DNA from: Bdellovibrionales bacterium
GTDB lineage: Bacteria; Bdellovibrionota; Bdellovibrionia; Bdellovibrionales; UBA1609
Length of the DNA stretch: 64,000 nt
NCBI GenBank assembly: GCA_023301025.1
Contig: JALZUR010000015.1
Location: forward strand, 1 to 64,000
Direction: 5' to 3'
Shown here: positions 11,382 through 64,000 of the stretch, in pieces
How positions within the stretch are numbered: position 1 is the stretch's first letter
How the letters are laid out: each line of letters begins with the position of its first letter
Notes under the pieces: generated by a model
What the model saw: only the letters and a program-made list of their open reading frames with translations
Told to the model about the DNA's origin: nothing
The model's database searches: none
Made by a program: the position numbers and the translations under genes

Positions 11382-11807
11382 TTAGATAAAGTCTAAATAC
11401 TGTTTAAGTTTGTCTCCAATTTTAATATCCGTATTATTGTTACTTGCGTGCATGATCCAAAATGAATGTCTAGAAAGGTCAAACACGGTGTTGTCATTGA
11501 GTAAGAGTTCATTTAATAAAACACAAAAATCTTTAAAGCTTTTTTCTTGTTTAAGTGAAAAATTCGTTTGTAGAGATGGTGTAAATAGTCCTAAAAGATA
11601 GTCTAAGAAATCATCGTGAACTTCAAGTAAACCGTTTGAGGGTTCAGACTCCATATCTTCATTGGGTGAAAGTTGGTAGATACCTTTAGCAGTTTTGCCA
11701 TCGGAAAAATCAAAGTAGACCCAGTCACCTTTAATTTTTTTTTCTACTGCTACTGATTTTTCAAAGGCATCTTTTATTTCTGAATCAATTATAATTAAAG
11801 ACTTCAT
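11382..11807 (-). CDS. Conserved hypothetical protein
   Basis: 141-aa ORF filling a gap; no family recognised. Confidence 0.55.
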   Translation of the reverse strand: MKSLIIIDSEIKDAFEKSVAVEKKIKGDWVYFDFSDGKTAKGIYQLSPNEDMESEPSNGLLEVHDDFLDYLLGLFTPSLQTNFSLKQEKSFKDFCVLLNELLLNDNTVFDLSRHSFWIMHASNNNTDIKIGDKLKQYLDFI

Positions 11808-13940: not shown

Positions 13941-14990
13941 TTATCCTTTTAGTATTTCTTGAGCTAAATTCTTGTGATCACTATGACCGATTAAATTTGT
14001 ATCAAAACTTTTTGATGGAAGTAGATCTTCAGGGTTCTCTTTGTGATTTAAAATATATGACAGTCTTTTTTCATCTAAATCAACATTATCATTTAAATAA
14101 GTTAAAGCCTCTTTTGCTTTTTCATGCCCGTGGCAAAATAACAGTTGGTGAAATCCTAGTTCATAAATTCTTAAAACAGACTCTTTAAAATCAAACTTAG
14201 TCATTGCACCCATTTCTAAATCATCTGAAATTATCAAAGCCCTACAGTTTAGCTGATCAAGTAAGATGTCTTTTATCCAAATCTCAGATAAAGGAACAGG
14301 GTATTTAGAGTCAACTTTCGGAAACATCAGATGGCCTGGCATAATAAAAGTTGGTTTGGCTCTTAAACTTTTTCGAAAAGCCTTAATATCAATAATGTCT
14401 TCATAGCTTCTATCATCAATTGGTAAATCTTCATGACTGTCGATAGCAGAGTATCCATGACCAGGAAAGTGCTTTACACATGTCATTACACCAGCTTTTG
14501 AAAAGCCCCTTATGACTGCTGAACCATAGTCACCTACTTGATCGGGATCACTCCCAAAAGCTCTATCACCAATGACATCATTTTTGACATTAAGAAGAGT
14601 ATCAACACAAGGAGAGAAATCCATATTGATACCAACAGACTTAAGCTCTTTACCCATAGCTAGAGCAAAGTCAAAAGCTTTGGCCGTGCTGTTTAGTTTG
14701 GGTAGGTTCACCATTGGTGGCCATACTGTAAAAGGATTTTTAAGTCTTTGAACTCTGCCACCTTCCATATCAATGCCAATGAAAGCAGGTTGCTTAAGGC
14801 CATTTTCAATACAAAGATTTTGAATGTCTGTATTAAGATTGTAGAGCTGCTCCGGTGATTCATAATTTCTTGTGAATAAAATCACGCCTCCAGGAGGGTG
14901 TTCTTTTATGAACTCTCTTTCTTCGGAACTTAAAGATGTACCTTTTAAACCAATCCAAATAAACTGTGCTAAACTCGTTTTTTTATTCAT
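13941..14990 (-). CDS. nagZ: Beta-N-acetylhexosaminidase (GH3)
   Basis: IDMEGGRVQRL, DFSPCVDTL, IGDRAFGSDP, KHFPGHG..DSH motifs. Confidence 0.93.
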   Translation of the reverse strand: MNKKTSLAQFIWIGLKGTSLSSEEREFIKEHPPGGVILFTRNYESPEQLYNLNTDIQNLCIENGLKQPAFIGIDMEGGRVQRLKNPFTVWPPMVNLPKLNSTAKAFDFALAMGKELKSVGINMDFSPCVDTLLNVKNDVIGDRAFGSDPDQVGDYGSAVIRGFSKAGVMTCVKHFPGHGYSAIDSHEDLPIDDRSYEDIIDIKAFRKSLRAKPTFIMPGHLMFPKVDSKYPVPLSEIWIKDILLDQLNCRALIISDDLEMGAMTKFDFKESVLRIYELGFHQLLFCHGHEKAKEALTYLNDNVDLDEKRLSYILNHKENPEDLLPSKSFDTNLIGHSDHKNLAQEILKG

Positions 14991-15011: not shown

Positions 15012-15836
15012 TTAAATTACAGAGTTTTTCTTAGGGTCAAGCATCTGTTTTAACCCATCTCCTAGAAGATTAAAACCAAGAACTACTAAAACTATCGAAA
15101 TTCCTGGAAAAAAAGAAATGTGAAAGGCTTCTACCAAATAAAATTTACCACTGTTTAAAAGTGAGCCCCAAGTTGGAATATGTGCTGGGGCTCCCAAACC
15201 TAAAAAACTTAAGCCTGATTCAACAATAAGTGTTCCCGCAAGTGAAAAAGTGGATTGTACGAGTAAGAGTCCAGTTAGATTTGGTATTATATGTTTAAAT
15301 AAAATTCTAAAATCTGAAGAACCAATTGATCTTGCAGATGAAATATAATCAAGCTCTTTTAAATGAAGCACTTCCCCTCTGACAAGTCTTGCAAAGCCTG
15401 TCCAACTTGTTAAAGACAAAGCGAATACAAGGTTTAAAAGAGAAGGACCAAGAACACAAACAAGGGTTAAGGCTAAAAGAAAGCCTGGAAAAGAGTAGAA
15501 TAGATCTAGCAGTCTCATCATTGTTTCATCTACTTTTTTACCGTAGTAACCAGAAATTGATCCATATAAAGTTCCAATTATAAGGCCAATAAAGACAACG
15601 CTAAAGGCAATAAATAAAGACACTCTTGAACCAATCAAAACCTTTTTAAAAAGTTCAGCTCCAGTTTCATCCGTACCCATAAAGTGCGTAAAATTAGGGG
15701 AGATAAATTTTTGTGAGAGGTTAACTTGATTAGCTTCATCATAGCTGTACGTAAAGCTCCAAAAAGCAAAGCCAAAAAACAGAAGTATGAGCAAGGAACC
15801 GAAAACTAAAAAAATATTAATTTTATATTTTTTCAT
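15012..15836 (-). CDS. ABC transporter permease, DppC/OppC family
   Basis: GTDETGAELFKKVLIGSRVS, EAA loop ARSIGSSDFRILFKHIIPN, FLGLGAPAHIPTWG. Confidence 0.92.
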   Translation of the reverse strand: MKKYKINIFLVFGSLLILLFFGFAFWSFTYSYDEANQVNLSQKFISPNFTHFMGTDETGAELFKKVLIGSRVSLFIAFSVVFIGLIIGTLYGSISGYYGKKVDETMMRLLDLFYSFPGFLLALTLVCVLGPSLLNLVFALSLTSWTGFARLVRGEVLHLKELDYISSARSIGSSDFRILFKHIIPNLTGLLLVQSTFSLAGTLIVESGLSFLGLGAPAHIPTWGSLLNSGKFYLVEAFHISFFPGISIVLVVLGFNLLGDGLKQMLDPKKNSVI

Positions 15837-16753
15837 TATGAATGAATCCTTGGGTTGGCATAGGTGTAGAGTAAGTCTGTTAAAAAATTAATTACAACAT
15901 AGATAAAAGCGATAATTATAATACAAGCTTGAACGATCGGATAATCTCTTTGTTGTATAGCTTCAAACAAAAGAGTTCCAAGCCCAGGCCAATTAAATAT
16001 CGTTTCTGTAATAACAGTGCCAGTTAAAAGGCTACCTACTTGCAAACCCACAACTGTTATAATGGGTATGAGTGAGGCAAAAAGAGCGTGTTTAAAATAA
16101 AGTGTAAAGTTACTTATGCCTTTTGAGTAAGCTACTTTGATAAACTCTTGGGTGAGGGTTTCTTGTATAGAAGCCCTTGTGATTCTCATAAGTATTGCAC
16201 CTAAAGGAAGAGCTAAACTTAAACTGGGCAGTATAACGCTTGAAAAATTTTCGCGACCTCCAACGGGCAACACGTCAAAATAAATTGAGAACAGCCAAAT
16301 GAGCATGGGACCTAAGAAATAACCGGGAACAGACATTCCCAGCACACCAATGCTTGTAGATATAAAATCTAGTGGCTTATTTTTTGTAACTGCTGTGAGC
16401 ACGCCTGCAGGTATGCCCCAAAGACAAGAGAGTAGAACCGAATAAGCACTAAGCTCTAAAGTTGCGGGAAATCTTTGAATGATCATGTCTTTTACAGAAA
16501 GACCTGAAAGTAGAGAAAAACCAAAATCTAATCTTATAAGTCCAGTTAAAAAAACTAGATACTGCTTAAAGAGACTTTTGTTAAGTCCCATGGACTCTCT
16601 TAGTCGTTCTTTTTCTAATTCAGTTGCGAATTCACCTAAAAGTAAATCAGTGGGGTCTCCTGGGATCAGAGACATTAGCAGAAAGGTAACTGTGGCTACT
16701 AAAAAAAGTAGCGGGAAAAGCAGTATAAACCTTCTAAAAAAAACTTTAAGCAC
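15836..16753 (-). CDS. ABC transporter permease, DppB/OppB family
   Basis: LRESMGLNKSLFKQYLVFLTGLIRLDFGFSL, VAYSKGISNFTLYFKHALFASLIP, ETIFNWPGLGTLL. Confidence 0.92.
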   Translation of the reverse strand: MLKVFFRRFILLFPLLFLVATVTFLLMSLIPGDPTDLLLGEFATELEKERLRESMGLNKSLFKQYLVFLTGLIRLDFGFSLLSGLSVKDMIIQRFPATLELSAYSVLLSCLWGIPAGVLTAVTKNKPLDFISTSIGVLGMSVPGYFLGPMLIWLFSIYFDVLPVGGRENFSSVILPSLSLALPLGAILMRITRASIQETLTQEFIKVAYSKGISNFTLYFKHALFASLIPIITVVGLQVGSLLTGTVITETIFNWPGLGTLLFEAIQQRDYPIVQACIIIIAFIYVVINFLTDLLYTYANPRIHS

Positions 16754-16797
16754 TTTTAAATTCCTAGATCTGGTTATAGGGTTAAGTCAAATTTTAC

Positions 16798-16876
16798 TAA
16801 ACTGTAAGTTTATAAACTATAGGTTTATAAGTATTATTAAACTAGAAGTTTATCAGTCTTTCAAACTACAAGTTTG
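16798..16876. promoter_or_regulatory. Four palindromic operator-like repeats AAACTnnnAGTTT (one with GGTTT) between divergent permease and anmK genes
   Basis: AAACTGTAAGTTT 16799-16811; AAACTATAGGTTT 16814-16826; AAACTAGAAGTTT 16839-16851; AAACTACAAGTTT 16863-16875. Confidence 0.7.
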
Positions 16877-16914
16877 TTTTCTGCTAAAACATATATTGAA
16901 TTAAAGTGGGTTCT

Positions 16915-17973
16915 ATGAATGTTGTTGGAATAATGAGTGGCACAAGTTTAGATGGAGTAGATTTTGTTTTATGTGGTTTTAATGCACAAAAAACAATCTA
17001 TAAAGACCAAGCACATAAAAAATTTCCTAAAGTATTAAAACAAAACTTAGAAAGCTTAGCAGAGGGAAAGCTGTCTTTTAGAGAGGGTCAAAAGCTTCAC
17101 TTTGAACTTGGAAAGTTTTACTTTACAGCGCTTAAAAGTATTTTAAATACTAAAAAATGGTGCATTGATCTTATAGGACTTCATGGTCAAACTGTGTATC
17201 ATTTCCCACCTCTCGGAACGACTCAAATAGGAGAGCCCTCTTTTTTAAGAAAACTTGGAGTCCCAGTTGTAAGTGATTTTAGGTCAAAACTACTGACTTA
17301 CGGAACAGATGGAGCTCCTTTAGCTCCTATCTTTCATGATGAGATTTTAAAAAATAATAAAAGTTGGGGTTTTTTAAATTTAGGTGGAATGTCTAATTTA
17401 ACCACTAAATCACAGTCAAAGCCCTTGTTTGCCTCTGATTTTGGCCCTGCTAATATATTTTTGGATAAAGCTGTAAAAAAACTATTTAATAAAGAGTTTG
17501 ATAAAGACGGACAGAAAAGCTTAAAAGGCTTAGCCAATTTAAAAATTTTAGAATCATACGTAAAAGAAAATAGATTTTTTAACTTAAAACATCCTAAAAG
17601 CTGTGGCCGAGAAGAGTTTAGTGAAAAAGAATTCTTAAGGCTTATGAAAAAGATGAAAAACTTAGATAAGTACGATATTTTAGCAACTTTTTGTGAGATT
17701 TCACTCTATCCGATACTTAAGTACCTAAAGAAAAATCCTGTAAAAAAACTTATTGTTTCAGGCGGTGGGGCTAAAAATAAATATTTTATTTCAAGGCTTA
17801 AAGAAGAGCTACAAATCAATGTTTGCACCAGTGACTCTATTGGATGGCCAACAGAGTCTGTAGAAGGGGCAGCTTTCGCACTACTAGCGTACAAAAAGTA
17901 CATTAAAAAAGAAGTTAACCTCGAGTACTTAGGTTTAAAAGAACCTTTAAGTCCACTGGGTCGAATGGATTAA
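16915..17973 (+). CDS. anmK: Anhydro-N-acetylmuramic acid kinase
   Basis: VGIMSGTSLDGVDFVL, GLHGQTVYH, NLGGMSNLT, SGGGAKN motifs; ATG at 16915 preferred over upstream GTG. Confidence 0.95.
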   Translation: MNVVGIMSGTSLDGVDFVLCGFNAQKTIYKDQAHKKFPKVLKQNLESLAEGKLSFREGQKLHFELGKFYFTALKSILNTKKWCIDLIGLHGQTVYHFPPLGTTQIGEPSFLRKLGVPVVSDFRSKLLTYGTDGAPLAPIFHDEILKNNKSWGFLNLGGMSNLTTKSQSKPLFASDFGPANIFLDKAVKKLFNKEFDKDGQKSLKGLANLKILESYVKENRFFNLKHPKSCGREEFSEKEFLRLMKKMKNLDKYDILATFCEISLYPILKYLKKNPVKKLIVSGGGAKNKYFISRLKEELQINVCTSDSIGWPTESVEGAAFALLAYKKYIKKEVNLEYLGLKEPLSPLGRMD

Positions 17974-18942
17974 AAGTTTATCATCAAAAGTTAAGCTTTC
18001 ACTTGTTAGCTCTTGATTTAAAGTTAGTTTTTCAAAAACAGCACTGTTTGATAATTTAACAGCTCTATCAATAGAGCAGGTGTCTGGAACGCAAACAAAG
18101 TCTTTCGGAAGATCTGATCTATAAGTGTTAAGTCCCCAATGGTTTTCATTTAAAAAAAGTTCAAGTTTTTGATCTAAATTTTTTTCTAAACCCCAATTTT
18201 TATGTGTTCTGTAAACAAAAGAGTTTTCTTTTTTAAGCTTTAAGTTTTGAGCCTCTTTTTTCATACAGGTGATAAAGTCTTTTTCATTTCCTGTCTCAGA
18301 CCAAACAACATCTTTAGGAGCATTATAGACAAAAACTTTATCCATAACCTCTGGTTTTAAGAGAAGGTCATCAAAAAGTTTAAAGGCCTTAGGTTCAATA
18401 TATTTAAAAACATCTCTGTTTAAAAGATAAAGACCAATAAAGTGAAGTGAATCATTGTCACGATTCAAACCTTTGAATCTAGAGTATGTGTCATAAGACA
18501 AACCGTTTAAGCCTGTCTTTTTATTACCAGTACCAATTAAAGTAACTAAGGCTTTTGATTTTAAATGAAGGTCCACAGCTTCATTTAGAAAATCAGTGTT
18601 TTCATAGCTAATGAAAGAATCTCCATTTAAAATCCAAAAATGTTCATCATCTAATTGTTTAGAGTTTTTTAAATGAATCAAAGAGCCGCCACTATCAAGA
18701 AGTTCTTTTTCAAAAAAAGCCTCAGTTTTAAAATAAGGTTTAATTGATTTCTCTAGCTCTTCAGGCAGATGATGACTGTTGTAAAAAAAATCACTAACAC
18801 CAAATTCTTTCAAAGCTGAAGTAGAGTATAAGACCTGTGGAATATTAAAAAAAGGCAATGCAGGCTTGGGACAAAAATGAGTTTGTGGTTTAAATCTTGT
18901 GCCTAAACCAGCACATAAAATAAAAGCTTTATCGATTTTCAT
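17947..18942 (-). CDS. murU: Sugar nucleotidyltransferase, MurU-like
   Basis: FILCAGLGTRFKPQTHFCPKPALPF nucleotidyltransferase signature; adjacent to AmgK-like and AnmK genes; longer than typical MurU. Confidence 0.75.
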   Translation of the reverse strand: MKIDKAFILCAGLGTRFKPQTHFCPKPALPFFNIPQVLYSTSALKEFGVSDFFYNSHHLPEELEKSIKPYFKTEAFFEKELLDSGGSLIHLKNSKQLDDEHFWILNGDSFISYENTDFLNEAVDLHLKSKALVTLIGTGNKKTGLNGLSYDTYSRFKGLNRDNDSLHFIGLYLLNRDVFKYIEPKAFKLFDDLLLKPEVMDKVFVYNAPKDVVWSETGNEKDFITCMKKEAQNLKLKKENSFVYRTHKNWGLEKNLDQKLELFLNENHWGLNTYRSDLPKDFVCVPDTCSIDRAVKLSNSAVFEKLTLNQELTSESLTFDDKLLIHSTQWT

Positions 18943-19855
18943 GATTCATCCAGAGATTAGACGTTTCGGTTATAAAATTTTTGAGAATTGGAAAGTCTTT
19001 GTCTTTTAAAAAATCTGTTAATGTAATAAAAGTTACATTTAAATACTGTAAATAGTCTGAATTCTGCTTTTCATTAAATTGGGCTGAAAAGCTGCCACTT
19101 GCCTTAAAAAGTCTTTGAATTGCTGTGATTTTATAAAGCTCTTCATCTAAAGCGTTCTGTGTTTTTTCAGAATAAAAGTTTTTAAGTTTTGTTTTTAAGT
19201 CTTTGTTTAAAGCAACATATGGATCTTCTATGAGACTTACCAGGTCATAAAGTTTTGGTCCGAGCCGAGCATCTTGAAAATCTATAAGGTAGAGTTCATT
19301 CTGATTTAGCATTATATTTTTAGAATGAAAGTCTCTATGGCAAGCGGGTTGGTCACTGGTAAGTATAGCGTCGCAAATTCTTTCAAACTCAGAAGAGATG
19401 TTATAAGTGTTTTTTTGATTTGTTAATTCTTTTAAATGTTCAAATGCAAAGTTTAGCTCCCATAAAAATTTCTCTTTTGTAAAGTAAGCTTCTGAAATTT
19501 TAAAATCAAAATTTGTATCTATTTTTTGAAAGCTACAAAGCATATCAACTGCTCGTTCATAGTTATTCTCATTGACCTGGTCGTATAGACAAAGATCACC
19601 TAAATCCTCTTGTATAATAATAGGAAAGTTAGAGTAAAATATATCAGGATTTTTAATATTATTTTTAGAAAGTAGATTTTGTATATTGATGAAGTTTTTG
19701 AAACCTGTTTGATCTTTATGATAATGGCATAAAATGAAACCGTTCTTAATCTCTCTAAAGTACTCTCTGTTGCTGGCGTCCCCTTTGAGTTTTAGAATTT
19801 CAAAATCATTAAGATTTGTGTAGGTATTTAGTGATTTTATTAGTAAAGCATCCAT
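18929..19855 (-). CDS. amgK: Aminoglycoside-phosphotransferase-fold sugar kinase, AmgK-like
   Basis: CHRDFHSKNIMLNQNELYLIDFQDARLGPKLYDLVSL catalytic motifs; overlaps the MurU-like gene. Confidence 0.78.
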   Translation of the reverse strand: MDALLIKSLNTYTNLNDFEILKLKGDASNREYFREIKNGFILCHYHKDQTGFKNFINIQNLLSKNNIKNPDIFYSNFPIIIQEDLGDLCLYDQVNENNYERAVDMLCSFQKIDTNFDFKISEAYFTKEKFLWELNFAFEHLKELTNQKNTYNISSEFERICDAILTSDQPACHRDFHSKNIMLNQNELYLIDFQDARLGPKLYDLVSLIEDPYVALNKDLKTKLKNFYSEKTQNALDEELYKITAIQRLFKASGSFSAQFNEKQNSDYLQYLNVTFITLTDFLKDKDFPILKNFITETSNLWMNHENR

Positions 19856-19900: not shown

Positions 19901-20641
19901 TTAGTTTATTTCAATTTTTTTATTCTTGATAACCTTTAAAAAGTATTTTTCTGAGATTAGCTCTTTTTCAATTTCTGTCTCACTCTTTTCAGACACCATC
20001 ATAAGAGAGTTTTTTCTAATAACAGATGGAAGCATAGAGTAAAGTGTTAAAGATACTCTTTGTGATTTATTAAGATTCATAAACTCATGAATGTATAAAA
20101 ATGAGTTTTTAAACTCTCTTAAATCTTTTAATGAAAAAGAATGCCCCTCACTTATCCATTCCGATAGATTTATAAAAGAGGTGTAATCACCCGTGTTAAA
20201 ATGATCCATAGCTAAGCTATAGGCTTGAAAAGGGTCGACACCGTAAATTGAACCAACTATTTTTGTGTTTGAGCTAATCAGCTGATCATCACTAGAGTAA
20301 GATTCTGTTGGTATAACTTTTATAAGAGTATCTATGGCTTTATTTAGAGTTTTTTCATCAATACTCTTACTGTTACTTAGTTGCACAAAGCCCCAGTCTG
20401 AAGACTGTGATTTTATGGGAATGTAAATAGAGCCTTCAAAAACTATAGATGTCTTGTTTTGAGTCAACTTTTTTAGAAGTTCGAAACGTGTTCCACCAGC
20501 TTCAAGTAAGGCCATCTTAGCATCAATCTTTAAAGAAGACTTTAGTGTGTTTATATACTCAGAAATAGAGGCATAAAACGGATGGCTCTGATATAAGCTT
20601 TGGCTAGTTTTTTTCCCATTGTGGCTCACAAGTTGTAGCAA
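19901..20641 (-). CDS. Hypothetical protein
   Basis: 246-aa ORF with no antisense competitor; no family recognised. Confidence 0.55.
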   Translation of the reverse strand: MLQLVSHNGKKTSQSLYQSHPFYASISEYINTLKSSLKIDAKMALLEAGGTRFELLKKLTQNKTSIVFEGSIYIPIKSQSSDWGFVQLSNSKSIDEKTLNKAIDTLIKVIPTESYSSDDQLISSNTKIVGSIYGVDPFQAYSLAMDHFNTGDYTSFINLSEWISEGHSFSLKDLREFKNSFLYIHEFMNLNKSQRVSLTLYSMLPSVIRKNSLMMVSEKSETEIEKELISEKYFLKVIKNKKIEIN

Positions 20642-20837: not shown

Positions 20838-20878
20838 TTCATTAGGGTGTAATGAAGATAAATAAGGGGAGAACCAAA

Positions 20879-22423
20879 ATGAAGGCACCTAAACTGTATA
20901 ATAAATTAACAGGTGAACATATTTTAAAGACACTAGCATCTACAACAGCAGCTTTACTGCTAGTAGTTGCTAACAGTGCTAAGGCTTCTGAGCTATCAGA
21001 AGGAGCTCAGTCCCTAGAGGTTGCAAAGTACAATACATGTAGTGCCAATAAACAAGATGCCAACAGAATGGAGCAAGAGTTTATTAGAGCTTGCTCAAAT
21101 GCTGGTTTAGGTGGGAAGACATCTTGTATAGCAAAGCTTTCAGAATGTGACTCTTCAGACGGTGAAAGTAAATGTCCTGGCAAAGCCTTAACTGCAAAAA
21201 AGAGCAAACTTGAAAGTCTTAAAGAAAAGCTTTCAGCTATGCAAAACCAAATACAAGAGCTTAACGGATCTCAAGAAGAGTTGGTTGAACAAGCCATTTC
21301 ACTAAACAGAGCTAAAGCTGATAAACTAGAGCTTCTTGATCAAGCATTAGCAGAAGTCAATAGCAGCAGAACTCAAGCACAAGCTCAATTAAACACCGAT
21401 CTTCAAAAGTTAGAAATAGCAGTTGAAGGTGCAGGAGACCAGCTGTTAGTTTTAGAGCTTGGCTTAAGAGAGTTTGTACTTTCAAGATCTTCAGAGTGTG
21501 AGACAAGAGCAGAAACTTACAGAAGTACTATTTATAATAGATACGTAACTGCTGCTCGTAGTGGTAACATAAAATATTCACATGCATCTTTATTTGGACT
21601 TACAGGTATGTCTGTAAAAGAGCTTGTTCGAAAAAGAGCGAACAAAGAAATGAGTAAGTGTATGTCTTTAACTACAACTGTAGATTCTAAAACAAAAATT
21701 ACAGCTTACGGTGCTCGCTACCAATTAGAAAAAGATAAATTAAAGCTTCAAAGAAACACGTTAAGTAAATCTATTAAGCGCATGCAAGATCAAAAACGTC
21801 TTGTTAGAGAGGCTCATAAGCAAACTATGATCTCACTTTCTCGTGCAGAGACAGGGCAAATTTCAAAATATCAAAAAGAGGTTTTAGCCTTAAGCCAGCA
21901 AGGTGAATCTCTTCAAAGAAAAGAAAGCAGTGTTGTAGTTAGAACGACTGCATTAATTTTGGAAACTGGCAGTTTAAAAACTCAGATCTCTGATTTAGAG
22001 GGAGAGCTTTTGAGTGATTATGGTCAAGAGATACTAGCAGCTGATGAAGACGACGTTGAAGAGTTTTTAGAAGCTCAACAGGCTAAAGAATCATTATTAT
22101 CAGCTTTAAGACTTGCTGAAGATGGTGCTCAAAGATGTGGAGCTCAAAATTGGATCACAGCACTAAAAGAAAAGTTAGAAAGTGGATCAGTAGTAGCAGA
22201 TAACAGTTCAGTTGTAGATGAAGACAACAGTGAAGACAAAAGTGAAGATGAAATCGTTAGAACAGCAACTGATCTTTTAGAGTCAGACACTCAAAGTGCT
22301 GAATCTGAGATATTAACTGCAAGACAAGATCGCTTCAAAAGATCTAGAAACTTAGATTCTGAGCGTAAGAAAAGATTTGAAGACAGCATTGCACCAGCAG
22401 TAAGAGCTAAAACTACACGTTAA
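20879..22423 (+). CDS. Secreted coiled-coil protein
   Basis: Signal peptide region (TTAALLLVVANSAKA), extensive heptad-like coiled coil; RBS AGGGGAGA before ATG 20879. Confidence 0.75.
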   Translation: MKAPKLYNKLTGEHILKTLASTTAALLLVVANSAKASELSEGAQSLEVAKYNTCSANKQDANRMEQEFIRACSNAGLGGKTSCIAKLSECDSSDGESKCPGKALTAKKSKLESLKEKLSAMQNQIQELNGSQEELVEQAISLNRAKADKLELLDQALAEVNSSRTQAQAQLNTDLQKLEIAVEGAGDQLLVLELGLREFVLSRSSECETRAETYRSTIYNRYVTAARSGNIKYSHASLFGLTGMSVKELVRKRANKEMSKCMSLTTTVDSKTKITAYGARYQLEKDKLKLQRNTLSKSIKRMQDQKRLVREAHKQTMISLSRAETGQISKYQKEVLALSQQGESLQRKESSVVVRTTALILETGSLKTQISDLEGELLSDYGQEILAADEDDVEEFLEAQQAKESLLSALRLAEDGAQRCGAQNWITALKEKLESGSVVADNSSVVDEDNSEDKSEDEIVRTATDLLESDTQSAESEILTARQDRFKRSRNLDSERKKRFEDSIAPAVRAKTTR

Positions 22424-30078: not shown

Positions 30079-31632
30079 ATGATGAATTGGGATGAGTTTG
30101 AGCACATTCATGTTATTAAAAAGTTAAAAAACATAGTTGGTCAGTGGTGGAATGTCGATATTATCTTCACTGATGAAACTGGAGCACCTACATTTACAGG
30201 TGTCGACAAGCTTACATCTTTTAATCCAATGACTTCTCACATTTTTTCTCAAAATGACTTTGTTGTAGATTTTAAAAAGACAGTTAACGAAGCTATAAGT
30301 GACTTAAAAATTACTGATAAAAGATACACTGTTAAAAGTTGGACTAATTTAGGTACAGATCTAGTTGCTTTTCCTATAGTGATAGAAAATGACTTTATTG
30401 GTACAGTTGTAGCTTTCGGATTTGTTAAAGATAAAAAAGACTTTAATGAAGATCTTCTCAGAAAAAATCTTTCTACAATAGGCTTGGATAAAGATGTTGT
30501 TGAAGGTGCTGTTTCTAAAATCTCTTGTATTGAAGATAAAGATAAAGATCACTTTATTGAACTTGTAGAGCTTGTAGGACAAGAGATCATAACACTTCAT
30601 TTAGAGATTTCATCTCGTGAAGAGAGAATCAATGAGCTTAATAAAGAGCTTGGTGGTCGTTACAAATATGATCTTATGGTTGGAAAATCAAAAGTAATGC
30701 AGTCGGTTTACAGTTTACTTGATAAAATTAAACACTCTGAAACAACGGTACTTATCAATGGTGAAAATGGGACTGGTAAAGAACTCATTGCTAAATCTAT
30801 ACATTATAATTCTATTAGAAAAAATGGAACTTTTATAATTCAAAACTGTTCTGCATTTAATGATAACCTTTTAGAATCTGAACTTTTTGGTCATGCTAAA
30901 GGTTCATTTACAGGAGCAGTAAAAGAGAAAAAAGGCCTTTTTGAAAAAGCTCATAGAGGTACATTTTTCTTAGATGAGATTGGTGACACTTCCCCGCAAA
31001 TGCAGGTTAAGCTTCTTAGAGTTTTACAAGAAGGTACTTTTACACCAGTTGGTTCAACAGAACAAAAAAAGGTAGATGTAAGAATTTTAGCTGCAACTAA
31101 TAAAGACCTAAAAAAAATGGTTGATGAAGGCACTTTTAGAGAAGATCTTTATTATAGACTTAATGTTATCAATTTAGTTGTTCCTCCTCTAAGAGATAGA
31201 AGTGAAGATATTCCCTTACTTGTCGATTTTTTCATGAATGAAAGAAATAAAAAAAGTGGAAGTAAAAAGATACTGACAAAAACAGCTATGGAAAAGCTCT
31301 ACTCTTATGCGTGGCCTGGAAATGTTAGAGAGCTAAAAAATGAAATTGAAAGATTGGTAGTTTTAAGTGGAAATGATCATAAAATTACTCACGATATGCT
31401 ATCTGAAAAGTTGATTGCAAAGAGCAATCAACCAAGTAATCAGGGTTCACGAGTTCATGGTAAGTTAAAAGATGCTATAGAAGAGCTAGAAAAAGAAATG
31501 ATCCTAGAAGGCTTAAGAAGAACAGGTTGGAACAAATCAAGACTTGCAAAAGAACTTGGCATCAGTAGAGCTGGTTTGATAATGAAGGTTGATAAGTACA
31601 ATTTAGAAAAAAGAAAAGTAAGAGCCGAGTAA
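30079..31632 (+). CDS. Sigma-54-dependent transcriptional activator (N-terminal sensory domain, AAA+, Fis-type HTH)
   Basis: GENGTGKELIAKSIHYNS, ELFGHAKGSFTGA, WPGNVRELKNEIERL, C-terminal HTH. Confidence 0.95.
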   Translation: MMNWDEFEHIHVIKKLKNIVGQWWNVDIIFTDETGAPTFTGVDKLTSFNPMTSHIFSQNDFVVDFKKTVNEAISDLKITDKRYTVKSWTNLGTDLVAFPIVIENDFIGTVVAFGFVKDKKDFNEDLLRKNLSTIGLDKDVVEGAVSKISCIEDKDKDHFIELVELVGQEIITLHLEISSREERINELNKELGGRYKYDLMVGKSKVMQSVYSLLDKIKHSETTVLINGENGTGKELIAKSIHYNSIRKNGTFIIQNCSAFNDNLLESELFGHAKGSFTGAVKEKKGLFEKAHRGTFFLDEIGDTSPQMQVKLLRVLQEGTFTPVGSTEQKKVDVRILAATNKDLKKMVDEGTFREDLYYRLNVINLVVPPLRDRSEDIPLLVDFFMNERNKKSGSKKILTKTAMEKLYSYAWPGNVRELKNEIERLVVLSGNDHKITHDMLSEKLIAKSNQPSNQGSRVHGKLKDAIEELEKEMILEGLRRTGWNKSRLAKELGISRAGLIMKVDKYNLEKRKVRAE

Positions 31633-33807: not shown

Positions 33808-33839
33808 ATTGTAATAAGACGTCAAAAATTAAAAAAAAA

Positions 33840-33991
33840 GCAAGCTTGTGATGATGCGTAAACCTCAGTTAAATAGGTGGGTGCCATTATAGATGCTTTA
33901 GGCTTTTCACTCTAAGGTGAACTTGCTCACCACATCCAGGGACAGCTCCCGAAAAAAAACTTATAGGGTTTACTTTCTCATACAAGCTTGC
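33840..33991 (+). ncRNA. Candidate structured RNA (6S-like architecture) or 5' leader upstream of xseA
   Basis: Long-range pairing GCAAGCTTGT (33840-33849)/ACAAGCTTGC (33982-33991), then GTAAACC (33858-33864)/GGTTTAC (33967-33973); internal GGTGGGT/GCTCACC, CTTTAG/CTAAGG and GGGACAGCTCCC hairpins; no ORF. Confidence 0.5.
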
Positions 33992-34084
33992 AGCTATCTG
34001 AATATATCATTTTAGAAGGCTCTAATAAAGACCTATTCTTGCTTAAAGCCAAAAAAGGTCCTAGGTTGGGCTGTGCCTAATCAA

Positions 34085-63512: not shown

Positions 63513-64000
63513 TAGATTTTTATTTGTTATATTTTTAGGAACTTGCTTTTCGCTTCCGAGCTTAGCAAGTTCTTTGTCGTTGACTACAGCTCTACAGCAA
63601 GAAAACTTTGTCTCTGACAGCAATCAAGATGTATCAAGAACAGCTATTGGTGCTGTAGGTGCTGAATTTGAAATGAATGTTGATCATCATTGGTCTGCAG
63701 GTATCTTTGGTGGTGCACAAACAAGCATTATCTCTCAAGAAAACCTAAGTTTTGGTGTTGGTGGTTTTATAAACTATTACTTTAAAGGTAGTCCTATAAA
63801 ATCTGAGTTTAAAAACTCTTCATCTTATATTTCTGGGCTTAGCAGAACTTCTTTTTTTGGTGGTCTTGGTGTAGAGCAAAGATTTTTAAATTCTGAAAAT
63901 GTTAAAAGTGAAAGTGCTGGTGGTCCATTTTTAAGAGTGGGTGGGCGCTACATTTGGAATTCAAACTTATTCTTAAGTGCTAACTTAAAGTTTTTACTAG
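63493..64000 (+). CDS. Outer-membrane beta-barrel-like protein (3' truncated by window)
   Basis: ATG 63493, signal peptide RFLFVIFLGTCFSLPSLAS, amphipathic strands; open to the window end. Confidence 0.7.
   Translation, partial: MRKKPVSRFLFVIFLGTCFSLPSLASSLSLTTALQQENFVSDSNQDVSRTAIGAVGAEFEMNVDHHWSAGIFGGAQTSIISQENLSFGVGGFINYYFKGSPIKSEFKNSSSYISGLSRTSFFGGLGVEQRFLNSENVKSESAGGPFLRVGGRYIWNSNLFLSANLKFLL

Follow-up and report, generated by a model that had tools for sequence, protein, structure and literature searches.

A four-dyad, operator-like array between the divergent anmK and dppB-dppC-nagZ genes of a Bdellovibrionales bacterium

Genes around the array

In the window (the whole stretch of 64,000 nucleotides that was analysed), anmK and the cluster dppB-dppC-nagZ diverge from an intergenic region of 161 bp with a GC content of 25% (16754-16914), close to the length of 150 bp given by an earlier sequence-only reading of the same DNA. 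The genes on both sides of this region are the following.

13941..14990, minus strand: nagZ, beta-N-acetylhexosaminidase (profile match above the curated cut-off)
15012..15836, minus strand: dppC/nikC-type ABC permease (profile match)
15836..16753, minus strand: dppB/nikB-type ABC permease, with the same GTG start (16753) as its homologues in the relatives G002 and G031
16915..17973, plus strand: anmK, anhydro-N-acetylmuramic acid kinase (profile match with E 5.8e-78, score below the curated cut-off)
17947..18942, minus strand: murU-like nucleotidyltransferase, convergent with anmK (59 bits, below the cut-off; synteny)
18929..19855, minus strand: amgK-like sugar kinase (66 bits, below the cut-off; synteny)

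The curated cut-offs are those of NCBIfam; nagZ scores above its cut-off, and anmK, murU and amgK score below theirs. Profile searches confirmed the identities that had been proposed for the permease, anmK and the salvage cluster. The remark that no candidate regulator is adjacent also proved right, as the neighbouring genes at 11382-11807, 19901-20641 and 20852-22423 encode proteins without a DNA-binding domain in Pfam searches, even at E 1. Elsewhere in the window, a 6S RNA is located at 33838-33992 on the minus strand (Rfam RF00013, 68.6 bits).

Sequence and geometry of the array

The intergenic region carries four copies of a 15-bp dyad with the consensus TAAACTnnnAGTTTA. Direct reading and a motif scan agree on the positions that had been claimed for them, with starts 15, 25 and 24 bp apart.

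16798..16812, no strand: operator-like dyad 1, TAAACTGTAAGTTTA, with the 13-mer AAACTGTAAGTTT from 16799
16813..16827, no strand: operator-like dyad 2, TAAACTATAGGTTTA, one mismatch, with the 13-mer AAACTATAGGTTT from 16814
16838..16852, no strand: operator-like dyad 3, TAAACTAGAAGTTTA, with the 13-mer AAACTAGAAGTTT from 16839
16862..16876, no strand: operator-like dyad 4, CAAACTACAAGTTTG, with C..G ends and the 13-mer AAACTACAAGTTT from 16863

The description of each copy as a dyad with 5-bp arms and a 3-bp spacer holds perfectly for dyads 1, 3 and 4, whereas dyad 2 (AAACT ATA GGTTT) has a single mismatch between its arms. The symmetry reaches 15 bp, with an outer pair that is T...A in sites 1-3 and C...G in site 4. 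Across the four dyads 39 of 40 arm bases agree, whereas the spacers differ (GTA, ATA, AGA and ACA), as do the linkers between the dyads. Dyads 1 and 2 adjoin exactly, with 0 bp between them. No further dyads with up to 2 mismatches were found near the array, nor any site upstream of the adjacent murU-amgK pair.

Two opposed promoters overlapping the intergenic array were predicted.

16809..16837, plus strand: weak sigma70-like promoter predicted for anmK, TTTATA-17-TATTAT, start near 16844
16836..16864, minus strand: sigma70-like promoter for dppB predicted by weight matrix only, TTGAAA-17-TTTAAT, start near 16829

The candidate anmK promoter overlaps dyads 1 and 2, and its predicted start falls inside dyad 3; the candidate dppB promoter overlaps dyads 3 and 4. 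Both predictions are near chance level: the consensus scan for sigma70 sites found one site where 1.1 are expected by chance, so that the anmK promoter is to be taken as a prediction only, and the dppB promoter is absent from the output of that scan.

Clustering of the dyads compared with chance

As a single site, the motif occurs about as often as expected. In the window there are 16 matches with at most one mismatch against 13.4 expected, which is no enrichment. In the genome (2.03 Mb), the exact motif is rarer than its reversed control (26 versus 37), and the 15-mer with at most one mismatch occurs at background frequency (41 versus 37); most of the other copies that were inspected lie inside genes. 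The clustering, on the other hand, is far beyond chance. With a second-order Markov model, a cluster of three exact sites and one site with one mismatch in 80 bp is expected about 5e-8 times per 64 kb and about 1e-6 times per genome. In none of the 64-kb sequences that were simulated (0 of 40 and 0 of 100) did a dyad word with 5-bp arms that include a G or C occur three or more times exactly within 90 bp. The concern, raised in the sequence-only reading, that the motif might be randomly frequent in this AT-rich genome is thus justified for single sites but not for the cluster.

The two-site pattern AAACTNNNAGTTT-N1-31-AAACTNNNAGTTT was found only here among the 372 genomes of the phylum that were searched, and a short similarity in G009 was set aside as a single imperfect copy. 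The genome motif scan gave no other clear regulon member and no autoregulatory cluster. Apart from the array it yielded two clusters, both judged to be due to chance and rejected as regulon members: a weak pair of sites at C5:50244 that lies across a gene end and, near 63771-63993, matches within coding sequence.

Comparison with relatives

The occurrence of anmK in the order is patchy: at a threshold of E 1e-20 it was detected in 28 of 141 genomes, this one included, and not once in genus g30 (24 genomes). Upstream regions could be compared for the 25 anmK orthologues in which the sequence extends 170 bp or more ahead of the gene, all of them distant (31-45% identical) and mostly preceded by genes different from those found here. 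Within 300 bp upstream of these 25 orthologues, neither the array motif nor any repeated dyad was found. Absence of the motif from orthologous anmK genes had been named beforehand as an argument against an operator, and it refutes an ancestral, conserved one; a lineage-specific operator stays compatible with it, since the orthologues are so distant and mostly have other upstream genes. Among the genomes compared, the array is confined to this one and in that sense is lineage-specific.

The amgK-murU pair beside anmK is widely kept in relatives. In the syntenic relatives G002 and G031, dppB-dppC-nagZ also lies near anmK, with intervening genes: three genes in the direction of anmK, one of which is TadE/G-like according to Pfam, and one further gene ahead of dppB. 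These genes are absent here (window 16754-16914 versus 8615-13992 of L070 and 5880-11750 of L071), and homologues of them also precede anmK in other families (L041, L048, L049, L052 and L056). This suggests, as the most parsimonious course of events, that the lineage lost the intervening genes and thereby gained a directly shared divergent promoter. As the intervening genes are absent here, the promoter shared by anmK and dppB would be new.

Interpretation and alternative explanations

The best explanation, to which we give a probability of about 0.72, is that the four dyads together serve as the operator of a single dimeric DNA-binding regulator, which would block anmK and dppB-dppC-nagZ jointly. 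Several dyads in a divergent promoter are a kind of arrangement that is already well known. Both the statistics and the way in which the dyads are conserved, with the arms retained and the spacers and linkers free to vary, give good support to the multi-site operator proposed by the sequence-only reading.

The putative regulator would probably be a repressor, and the position of the array makes joint control of both arms plausible. We infer that each 15-bp dyad would accept one dimer. The array spans the part of the region that probably contains the two opposed promoters, with dyads 3 and 4 placed 25 and 24 bp further on. Bound at dyads 1 and 2, the regulator would cover the -35 element and the spacer of the predicted anmK promoter, and at dyad 3 the anmK start, while occupation of dyads 3 and 4 would cover the -10 and -35 elements of the predicted dppB promoter. 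This placement of the dyads over both predicted promoters would suit repression of both, with RNA polymerase being blocked at anmK and dppB-dppC-nagZ together. A recycling intermediate could release the repression; that this is anhMurNAc or a product thereof is a reasonable guess only.

In favour of an operator count the location of all four sites inside the 161-bp region between divergent recycling genes and the clustering of several copies of one dyad beyond chance, which is a feature of multi-site operators. Against it count the spacings between the dyad centres (15, 25 and 24 bp), which are not whole helical turns, as well as the lack of an array in the relatives that have an anmK orthologue, the absence of another clear regulon member or autoregulatory cluster from the genome, the chance-level promoter predictions, and the fact that no regulator could be assigned.

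A variant that overlaps with the operator reading is that the sites serve one promoter only, either that of anmK or that of dppB, or that they bind an activator instead of a repressor. This is possible, but we consider it rather doubtful. The two genes are far apart in the syntenic relatives and must use separate promoters there; here, the predicted promoters overlap. The sites, however, occupy the central part of the region and extend into both of these promoters, which makes an effect on one alone less natural.

It is improbable that the array arose by local tandem duplication or by drift of AT-rich, low-complexity DNA and is without function. The region is very AT-rich, and sites 1 and 3 share some of their left flank (80% over 25 nt), but the simulations never yielded such a family of dyads. 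Moreover, conserved arms between diverging spacers and linkers are the opposite of what the decay of a simple duplication would leave, and favour recognition by a protein. A mobile or dispersed repeat was rejected as well, since the region carrying the array is present once in the genome and its unit has no copies elsewhere.

Sigma54 enhancer-binding proteins often use multiple palindromic sites in divergent regions. An activator gene of this type, with a weak match to a PocR-like sensory domain, is located 13 kb away (30079-31632, plus strand), and G031 has a similar gene about 1.2 kb from amgK (L070 2862-4412). That its product or another such protein binds the dyads is nevertheless very unlikely: neither strand of the intergenic region contains a GG-N10-GC (-24/-12) promoter, for which reason sigma54 enhancer sites were rejected, and the DNA upstream of the activator gene itself carries no dyad. 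Least credible of all are RNA hairpins in leader transcripts, acting as a riboswitch or attenuator; in RNA, every dyad can fold into a hairpin of 5-6 bp, but this reading was rejected because the folding energies are unremarkable (z from 0 to -1.2) and no Rfam family matches the region, and neither predicted transcript would include all of the copies.

Known systems and candidate regulators

Among the closest known systems is the murR-murQP divergon of E. coli, where MurR, of the RpiR family, represses when MurNAc-6P is absent (PMC5061867). In both cases divergent genes for the recycling of cell-wall sugars share one intergenic region. The present locus, however, consists of anmK on one side and nagZ with a peptide-type transporter on the other, no RpiR protein was detected, and the divergon does not itself encode the regulator. 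The domain HTH_6 (PF01418) of the RpiR family, to which MurR belongs, gave no match in this genome, which is 97.5% complete, whereas 12 of 14 control genomes matched; a MurNAc divergon regulated by MurR was rejected on this ground.

To our knowledge, the on/off switching of anhydro-MurNAc salvage in bacteria without MurR has been little studied, and a full-text literature search that combined Bdellovibrio with peptidoglycan recycling and anmK returned no paper. A tentative and rather speculative scenario is that a dedicated recycling regulator, as yet undescribed, operates in this MurR-less lineage, that loss of the intervening, TadE/G-associated genes set anmK and dpp-nagZ head to head, and that the new shared promoter then acquired the four-site operator. 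The locus would in that case record how the loss of genes can create a shared promoter that joins two halves of a pathway. The array itself provides a short, defined bait for fishing out the putative regulator.

GntR proteins (PF00392) gave no match in the genome, although control genomes matched, so a GntR-family operator was rejected. The single TetR protein is encoded beside unrelated genes, and there is no array at its own locus. The operator of archaeal TrmB, TACT-N3-AGTA, precedes the genes for a sugar ABC transporter (PMC4158304) and has the inner core ACT-N3-AGT in common with the dyads, but the outer bases differ. In this genome TrmB gave no match above the cut-off and one weak match inside a ParB-like protein, and an operator of the TrmB type was rejected for lack of such a protein.

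Closest in geometry is the operator of the antitoxin MqsA, AACCT-N3-AGGTT (PMC4894380), which likewise has 5-bp arms and a 3-bp spacer and agrees in four of five arm bases; it differs in the third arm base, and the present locus has several sites. The boxes of restriction-modification controller (C) proteins are also inverted repeats with a GACT/AGTC core (PMC5282649), but the outer G/C of this core is A/T here, and restriction-modification genes are absent among the neighbours that were scanned. The genome encodes three HTH_3 proteins, and neither the array nor a cluster of sites was found at their own loci. Autoregulation is usual, though not obligatory. An operator of the HTH_3 type (XRE-, MqsA- or C-protein-like) is disfavoured, as none of these three proteins has a promoter of its own that carries the sites.

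As to their surroundings, one of the three HTH_3 proteins, a small one, precedes a Fic-domain-like protein (HPFPNGNGR, recognised by eye) at L072 389-1442, possibly an antitoxin-toxin type pair. The other two are encoded in similar small operons (L073 1465-2687 and L074 355-1683), each consisting of the HTH_3 protein, a helical regulator-like protein and a short, probably secreted protein.
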